Assembly (NCBI GenBank): GCA_013791585.1
Contig: VMTK01000020.1
Coordinates: 1 to 59,666 of the forward strand
Length of the DNA: 59,666 bases
DNA from: Candidatus Falkowiibacteriota bacterium
GTDB taxonomy: Bacteria > Patescibacteriota > Patescibacteriia > Patescibacteriales > VMTK01
Reading direction: 5' to 3'
Shown here: in pieces, positions 33,089-36,001 of the stretch
How the letters are laid out: each line of letters begins with the position of its first letter
How positions within the stretch are numbered: position 1 is the stretch's first letter
Translations under genes and position numbers: made by a program
Notes under the pieces: generated by a model
What the model saw: only the letters and a program-made list of their open reading frames with translations
Told to the model about the DNA's origin: nothing
Database searches by the model: none

Positions 33089-33161
33089 GCGGGTATCGTA
33101 TAATGGTTTATTATATTAGCCTTCCAAGCTGAGGATACGGGTTCGATTCCCGTTACCCGCT
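33089..33161 (+). tRNA. tRNA-Gly(TCC)
   Basis: 73 nt. Acceptor GCGGGTA/TACCCGC, anticodon arm TAGCC-TTCCAAG..., T arm CGGG-TTCGATT-CCCG. A TATAAT box with a TTGTTA -35 precedes it by about 20 nt (around 33068). Confidence 0.93.
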
Positions 33162-33173
33162 CATATGAATTTA

Positions 33174-33256
33174 CCCCGCACCTTTTAGGCAGTTCTGCCC
33201 TTTTGTATTTGCCATTAAATTTATGTTTATATAATTCCTGCCTAAAAGGTGCGGGG
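33174..33256. repeat. 19-bp perfect inverted repeat downstream of tRNA-Gly
   Basis: CCCCGCACCTTTTAGGCAG (33174-33192) and its exact complement (33238-33256), with a 45-nt loop. It may act as a terminator; its CCCCGCACC end also occurs in the insert of the interrupted tRNA-Glu. Confidence 0.85.
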
Positions 33257-35675: not shown

Positions 35676-35817
35676 CTTGACTAAATCTAATAAATTATTT
35701 ATACTATCTTTAGTATTAACACAATTTAAGAAAAAAATCCATCCCGGCACAGGGGTGTTTATTTTTTAATAATGGTCCCTTCGTCTAATGGTTAGGACAT
35801 CAGGTTTTATTCATCCC

Positions 35818-35954
35818 CGCACCACAAAAATAATTTTAATATGCCGCCATCGTCTAATGGTTAGGACATCAGGTTTTCATCCTGAAAATCGGGGTTCAAT
35901 TCCCCGTGGCGGTACTAATTTTTTACTCTTCCAATGTTTTATTTTTGTGGTGCG
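35818..35954. repeat. Inverted-repeat ends of the insert in the outer tRNA-Glu
   Basis: CGCACCACAAAAATAA (35818-35833) is exactly complementary to TTATTTTTGTGGTGCG (35939-35954). The intact tRNA-Glu sits in the loop. Confidence 0.9.
35843..35914 (+). tRNA. tRNA-Glu(TTC), intact, nested in another tRNA gene
   Basis: 72 nt. Acceptor GCCGCCA/TGGCGGT, anticodon arm TCAGG-TTTTCAT-CCTGA with anticodon TTC, T arm CGGGG-TTCAATT-CCCCG. 27 nt (35851-35877) are identical to 35782-35808 of the outer tRNA. Confidence 0.95.
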
Positions 35955-36001
35955 AGGCAGGCCTGAAAATAGGGGTTCGATTCCCCTAGGGACTACGATA
36001 A

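Follow-up and report, generated by a model that had tools for sequence, protein, structure and literature searches.

Integrative elements that insert at transfer RNA (tRNA) genes have sub-locations in the anticodon and T loops; in the split, trans-spliced tRNAs of archaea (Nanoarchaeum type), complementary sequences lie beside the tRNA halves. A 2024 review of prokaryotic miniature inverted-repeat transposable elements (MITEs) does not mention tRNA (PMC10969869). In ribosomal RNA (rRNA) genes of the candidate phyla radiation (CPR), all GIY-YIG proteins lie within insertions that are neither group I nor group II introns (PMC11270868). Here we describe a tRNA-Glu gene nested inside another tRNA-Glu gene, at positions 35774-35995 of a 59,666-nt stretch of Candidatus Falkowiibacteriota DNA (contig VMTK01000020.1; "the window" is this whole stretch). 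An earlier sequence-only reading of the locus knew of no described bacterial case. The literature searched on nested tRNAs (preprints and most subscription papers were outside its scope) agrees: it contains a tRNA-Sec gene within a selB gene and nothing comparable to the nests described here.

The structure is probably a DNA insertion of a mobile cassette that carries a tRNA gene, and not an intron. Many related bacteria have nests of this kind, some of them two to four deep. Their recurrence suggests a mobile element, not recognised before, that breaks a vital gene and brings its replacement along. The observations behind the cassette are the recurrence of nests, their shared ends, the same isotype and orientation of inner and outer tRNAs, and the use of several loop positions. 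Further support comes from recursive nesting of identical units, 4-bp duplications at related elements, GIY-YIG genes inside such elements, and loss of outer halves.

The window nest and its recurrence

In the window, a tRNA-Glu gene is interrupted within its anticodon loop by an insert of about 155 nt (Table 1). The sequence-only reading had matched the two outer halves in the acceptor and anticodon stems, and this holds: the acceptor stem GGTCCCT/AGGGACT pairs at 7/7 positions (one G-U), the anticodon stem TCAGG/CCTGA at 5/5, and the T-stem at 5/5 as well. The perfect 16-bp inverted repeat and the intact inner tRNA-Glu(TTC) were also confirmed. ARAGORN with default settings and Rfam report the inner gene only (67.2 bits). 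When introns and overlays are allowed, ARAGORN calls the outer halves too; the loop is then shifted and the gene is misread as tRNA-Cys(gca). The joint fold contains the outer cloverleaf, the repeat stem and the inner cloverleaf (-79.7 kcal/mol, z -5.45), consistent with the earlier suggestion that the repeat would bring the outer halves together. That reading had also considered the insert too small for a group I intron. No group I intron was found in the window at Rfam gathering thresholds, the tRNAs being the sole Rfam matches, and the insert without its inner tRNA is about 80 nt; a group I intron was rejected because no core was found. The insert contains no open reading frame (ORF).

The genome (G000; 1.34 Mb, 73 contigs, 97.8% complete) yields 46 matches to tRNA, of which 45 exceed the cut-off. 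In whole-genome pattern searches, no intact tRNA-Glu(UUC) other than the inner gene was found, so that the outer tRNA-Glu would be redundant; the other intact tRNA-Glu found is of the CUC isoacceptor only (contig C35). The sequence-only reading had taken another intact gene for the same isoacceptor, combined with the absence of an outer transcript, as the mark of a dead outer gene. An intact isoacceptor gene does exist, and it is the inner gene itself.

The window nest is not a chance arrangement, because nested tRNAs with these repeat ends on either side recur at other loci of this genome and in many further genomes. The ends CCCCGCACCA...TGGTGCGGGG bound same-isotype nests of Gly, Met and Leu tRNAs in the same genome, and occur at nests in other genomes. 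A right-arm search of the genome revealed three tRNA-Gly(CCC) genes nested one in another; these have the ends CCCCGCACCA and TGGTGCGGGGCAAG, as does a tRNA-Met inside a tRNA-Met-like gene. Contigs C29 and C43 both start within a tRNA-Leu(CAG) nest which, if the two contigs join as they appear to, is four deep, with three left halves and three right halves around one intact gene. Its two inner units hardly differ, a result that insertion of a cassette into another copy of the same cassette would produce.

Outside this genome, nests are found in other Patescibacteria and in an Elusimicrobia record. They involve Glu, Val, Ala, Met, Pro, Leu, Ile, Gln and Arg tRNAs and occupy anticodon, D and T loops. 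Patterns combining the right arm with the T-loop recovered nests in Doudnabacteria, Moranbacteria, Falkowbacteria, Kerfeldbacteria, other Parcubacteria, several further bacterial metagenome-assembled genomes and the Elusimicrobia record. A left-arm pattern, which needs no outer 3' half, matched in 10 of 380 sampled genomes of the phylum; most of these matches, not all, are nests, some of them placed in T-loops or D-loops and carrying their ends in the opposite polarity. In 25 genomes picked mostly for earlier matches, a search for tRNAs of any kind with the right arm behind them also turned up nests for the most part, together with some ambiguous or decayed loci. Wherever both tRNAs are readable, inner and outer agree in isotype and orientation, even though the asymmetric TTCA/CAAG ends are reversed at some sites relative to others.

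Two other kinds of repeat were seen near tRNA genes. At L215 and L236 (genome G436), Val and Arg tRNAs are enclosed by a different repeat (CCCCNCACCTTT/AAAGGTGGGGGG) beside tRNA-like halves, in the D-arm; these are perhaps a sister family of the nests. At L109, L139 and L012, other palindromic hairpins (CCTGCCTGCCGG-type) lie within the D-loops of outer or dead tRNAs.

Table 1. Features of the nested locus, and a palindromic element located elsewhere in the window
Feature	Position	Strand	Details
Outer tRNA-Glu, 5' half	35774..35804	+	Acceptor GGTCCCT 35774-35780; D-arm; anticodon 5' strand TCAGG 35800-35804
TTTTATTCAT	35805..35814	+	Remnant of outer anticodon loop, plus the TTCA found before the left arm in most other nests
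Inverted-repeat left arm CCCCGCACCACAAAAATAA	35815..35833	+	Perfect 16 bp (CGCACCACAAAAATAA) at 35818-35833
Inner intact tRNA-Glu(UUC)	35843..35915	+	Acceptor GCCGCCA/TGGCGGT
Inverted-repeat right arm TTATTTTTGTGGTGCGAGG	35939..35957	+	Perfect 16 bp (TTATTTTTGTGGTGCG) at 35939-35954
CAGG	35958..35961	+	Equivalent of the CAAG found after the right arm in most other nests
Outer tRNA-Glu, 3' half	35962..35995	+	Anticodon 3' strand CCTGA 35962-35966; T-arm; acceptor AGGGACT 35988-35994; discriminator A 35995
83-bp palindromic MITE-like element	33174..33256	.	Terminal nine bases (CCCCGCACCTTTTAGGCAG...); TTTA on both sides; relative of the nest, outside it

Related palindromic elements and GIY-YIG genes

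The terminal nine bases of the nest arms are common to about 30 short palindromic elements of the same genome, and they link the nest ends to a mobile family. The exact sequence CCCCGCACCW has 70 copies in the genome, 35 per strand, against one for the reversed control; most of these pair into palindromic elements of 59-125 bp. Among 23 complete elements that were read, 21 are short (59-125 bp) and two are long (296 and 311 bp) and carry a GIY-YIG gene; perfect arms reach 19 bp. Identical 4-mers flank 15/23 elements outside nests versus 7.5% of mispaired controls, and identical 5-mers flank none. These flanks are 4-bp target duplications. When the window nest was compared with the terminal inverted repeat CCCCGCACC, its left arm proved exact and its right arm had one mismatch. 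The palindromic element of the window lies directly 3' of tRNA-Gly(UCC) (33089-33162) and has a predicted 20-bp stem.

GIY-YIG genes are located inside the two complete long elements and in a third element that is missing one end; the encoded nuclease has about 90 residues, with a range of 86-89. One of the elements (L226 1430-1725, contig C29) has a 19-bp terminal repeat and lies inside what appears by eye to be the tmRNA gene of this genome. Another (L225 1470-1782, contig C16) has a 20-bp terminal repeat with GAAC on both sides and lies inside a protein-coding gene.

At least six relatives have a GIY-YIG gene directly beside tRNA-Glu, and orphan 5' halves adjoin in five. In these five (L021, L022, L023, L024 and L025), an orphan tRNA-Glu 5' half with hairpins in its anticodon loop is followed by the GIY-YIG gene and then by an intact tRNA-Glu; at L022, the leader and the 5' half form a direct repeat. 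At L008 and L016, tRNA-Glu follows immediately after the end of a GIY-YIG gene. The GIY-YIG nuclease is the best candidate for the mover since its gene is the only one found in the related elements and since it adjoins tRNA-Glu in these relatives. The evidence is co-occurrence with related element ends and with the tRNA-Glu genes of relatives.

A possible GIY-YIG gene was seen near tRNA-Glu at L036, by eye only. Palindromes of the same family occur at L311 (about 222-294 and 1289-1353, contig C9) inside continuous ORFs that resemble riboflavin-pathway genes (putative).

Several other movers and modes of insertion were considered and rejected. Insertion into hairpin loops is not a general rule for the palindromic elements: flank complementarity averages 9.0 pairs, not above the control (8.7), and there is one striking case (L248). 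A Y1/RAYT transposase has one weak match in the genome and no visible link to the elements. A larger autonomous element was considered on the basis of the sole end pair 1.1 kb apart; the two ends proved to belong to distinct elements, both in coding genes. For viral carriers, viral contigs scanned with the patterns yielded 17 stretches; the 12 left-end matches contain no nest, and the other five are right-end matches. Recombinase crossover models that give the TTCA and CAAG ends exactly failed to fit all sites.

Probable cassette insertion and rival explanations

In many anticodon-loop nests, the original X-CA-Y has, judged by eye, become X-TTCA-CCCC...GGGG-CAAG-Y. The window junction follows the same rule with small changes, having TTCAT before the arm and CAGG after it. 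Since both nest ends add bases, contiguous excision restores no loop. No contiguous excision in the window can give a 7-nt loop with a Glu anticodon, and across nests a cognate 7-nt loop is restorable in only 2/14 outer tRNAs, both of them Gly levels of this genome. Outer halves are also missing or truncated at L220, L222 and L188. Given the 12/14 failures and these losses, the outer tRNA-Glu gene of the window is presumably dead.

This bears on the proposal in the sequence-only reading that a ligase might rejoin the outer tRNA. The repeat would juxtapose the halves, and an endonuclease and RtcB would remove the insert to leave a working outer tRNA. The RtcB-type gene which that reading advised looking for is present, the joint fold is stable, outer stems are fully paired in the window and in several other nests, and two Gly outer tRNAs are exactly restorable. 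RtcB is weak evidence for splicing because the gene is widespread, and the set of paired stems was partly selected by a pattern that requires an intact T-loop. Most outer tRNAs, the window's included, fail the excision test; moreover, other genomes have lost outer halves, D and T loops also hold nests, and a working copy of the isotype is already there. Splicing is thus very improbable. An outer tRNA in two pieces is improbable too: here RNase III and RNase P would remove the repeat and the inner tRNA, leaving paired halves that do not decode and might serve elsewhere. The long repeat stem does adjoin the outer cloverleaf, and intervening sequences of bacterial 23S rRNA are cut by RNase III without rejoining, with similar short insertions in CPR 23S genes (PMC11270868). 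Yet the outer tRNA has had its anticodon destroyed, some genomes have lost outer halves, and no selective reason covers all the isotypes.

Duplication or gene conversion is a rather unlikely origin, in which a palindromic element hit a tRNA gene and recombination copied the intact allele into the loop, with no cassette moved. The same isotype and orientation would follow automatically; in addition, the inner and outer 3' halves at L171 are identical, flank included, and the units of the Leu array are nearly so. However, the acceptor stems of the two window genes differ in sequence and each is fully paired, and among relatives each type is found as an intact single gene, so simple duplication of the outer gene does not account for the inner one. 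Relatives had been proposed as the place to seek an uninterrupted outer tRNA, and the outer acceptor type is indeed an intact tRNA-Glu gene in some of them. In the window, the nest is flanked by tsaD on one side and a phospho-sugar isomerase gene on the other; relative G029 has the same two neighbours around one uninterrupted tRNA-Glu(UUC) of the inner acceptor type. (At L028, on contig C4 of G049, the halves of a tRNA-Glu are separated by about 11 kb, a pattern that resembles splitting of the gene by an integrative element.) An assembly artefact is hardly credible: inner and outer genes share an identical stretch of 28 nt and two Leu contigs end inside a nest, but the same architecture with the same ends is present in independent assemblies of many species.

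Insertion of a cassette remains the preferred explanation, and some observations weigh against it. The outer stems of the window are still fully paired, which suggests that the gene died recently or that selection still maintains it; most genomes with such complete pairing came from a pattern demanding an intact T-loop. There is no 4-bp target duplication at the window nest (flanks TCAT/CAGG), and duplications are absent in nearly all nests, the Gly nests being the only exception. All clearly recognised tRNA cassettes lie within tRNA genes. Finally, the nest arms and the palindromic elements share their terminal nine bases only. Cassettes and palindromic elements may nonetheless form one family; this kinship is deduced from those nine bases. 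With so short a link, and with no duplication except in the Gly nests, membership of the nests in the palindromic family is not claimed.

If a cassette was inserted, events may have run as follows. A unit with inverted-repeat ends and a complete tRNA gene of the same isotype would have landed in the anticodon loop of the resident tRNA-Glu gene and killed it. The cassette tRNA, having the same orientation, would be transcribed from the promoter of the broken gene, and the cell would survive. Ordinary tRNA biology suggests that RNase P and 3' processing would free the inner tRNA from the transcript. The matching isotype and orientation need no guiding, as insertion into a single-copy tRNA gene would be lethal unless a transcribed copy of the same isotype came along. 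The cassette's own tRNA would be a new target, and nests would deepen. The GIY-YIG nuclease may move the cassette by cutting target DNA, with repair of the homing type. It is possible, as a tentative extension, that the system is a natural gene drive with a rescue copy: the nuclease would cut uninterrupted tRNA loops and repair would install the gene-breaking cassette with its replacement tRNA, making the host depend on an element whose replacement gene can itself be invaded.

Should this be correct, the mobile element destroys an essential gene and carries a working copy of that gene as cargo, tRNA genes being both target and cargo. The replacement of single-copy tRNA genes by diverged copies in reduced genomes would then have an explanation, as would the tRNA halves that litter these genomes. 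The system would also make a selfish element with a built-in rescue accessible to testing, and would offer a candidate for a transposition system whose only encoded protein is a small GIY-YIG nuclease. Programs for tRNA detection that read such loci as introns, or miss them, would misjudge tRNA sets.

Comparison with known systems

The nearest known systems are palindromic elements or MITEs, integrative elements at tRNA sites, and homing elements. Every one of them either departs from the nests in a tested feature or has no complete rescue gene. Like Rickettsia palindromic elements and prokaryotic MITEs, the short palindromes of this genome have 4-bp duplications and occur in protein and RNA genes, some of them within open frames. 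The nests differ from these in that they enclose an intact tRNA, sit in tRNA genes of the same isotype, and mostly have no target duplication.

Islands integrated at tRNA genes by tyrosine recombinases resemble the nests in that tRNA loops are targeted and a working tRNA is restored. In contrast to the islands, a nest carries a whole second tRNA gene, the target gene is not repaired, and an integrase gene would not fit in the insert. The window nest has neither a recombinase gene nor a tRNA end rebuilt from a shared core, which are features of tRNA-site integrative elements. As in split tRNAs of the Nanoarchaeum type, complementary sequences adjoin the tRNA halves in nests; unlike those tRNAs, nests have no loop-restoring excision and their outer halves can be lost.

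Homing introns and endonucleases share with this system the GIY-YIG nuclease genes, which travel in elements related to the nests. They differ in that no intron core was found in the nest and excision leaves the gene unrestored. The GIY-YIG insertions of CPR rRNA genes may belong to the same family as the elements of this genome.
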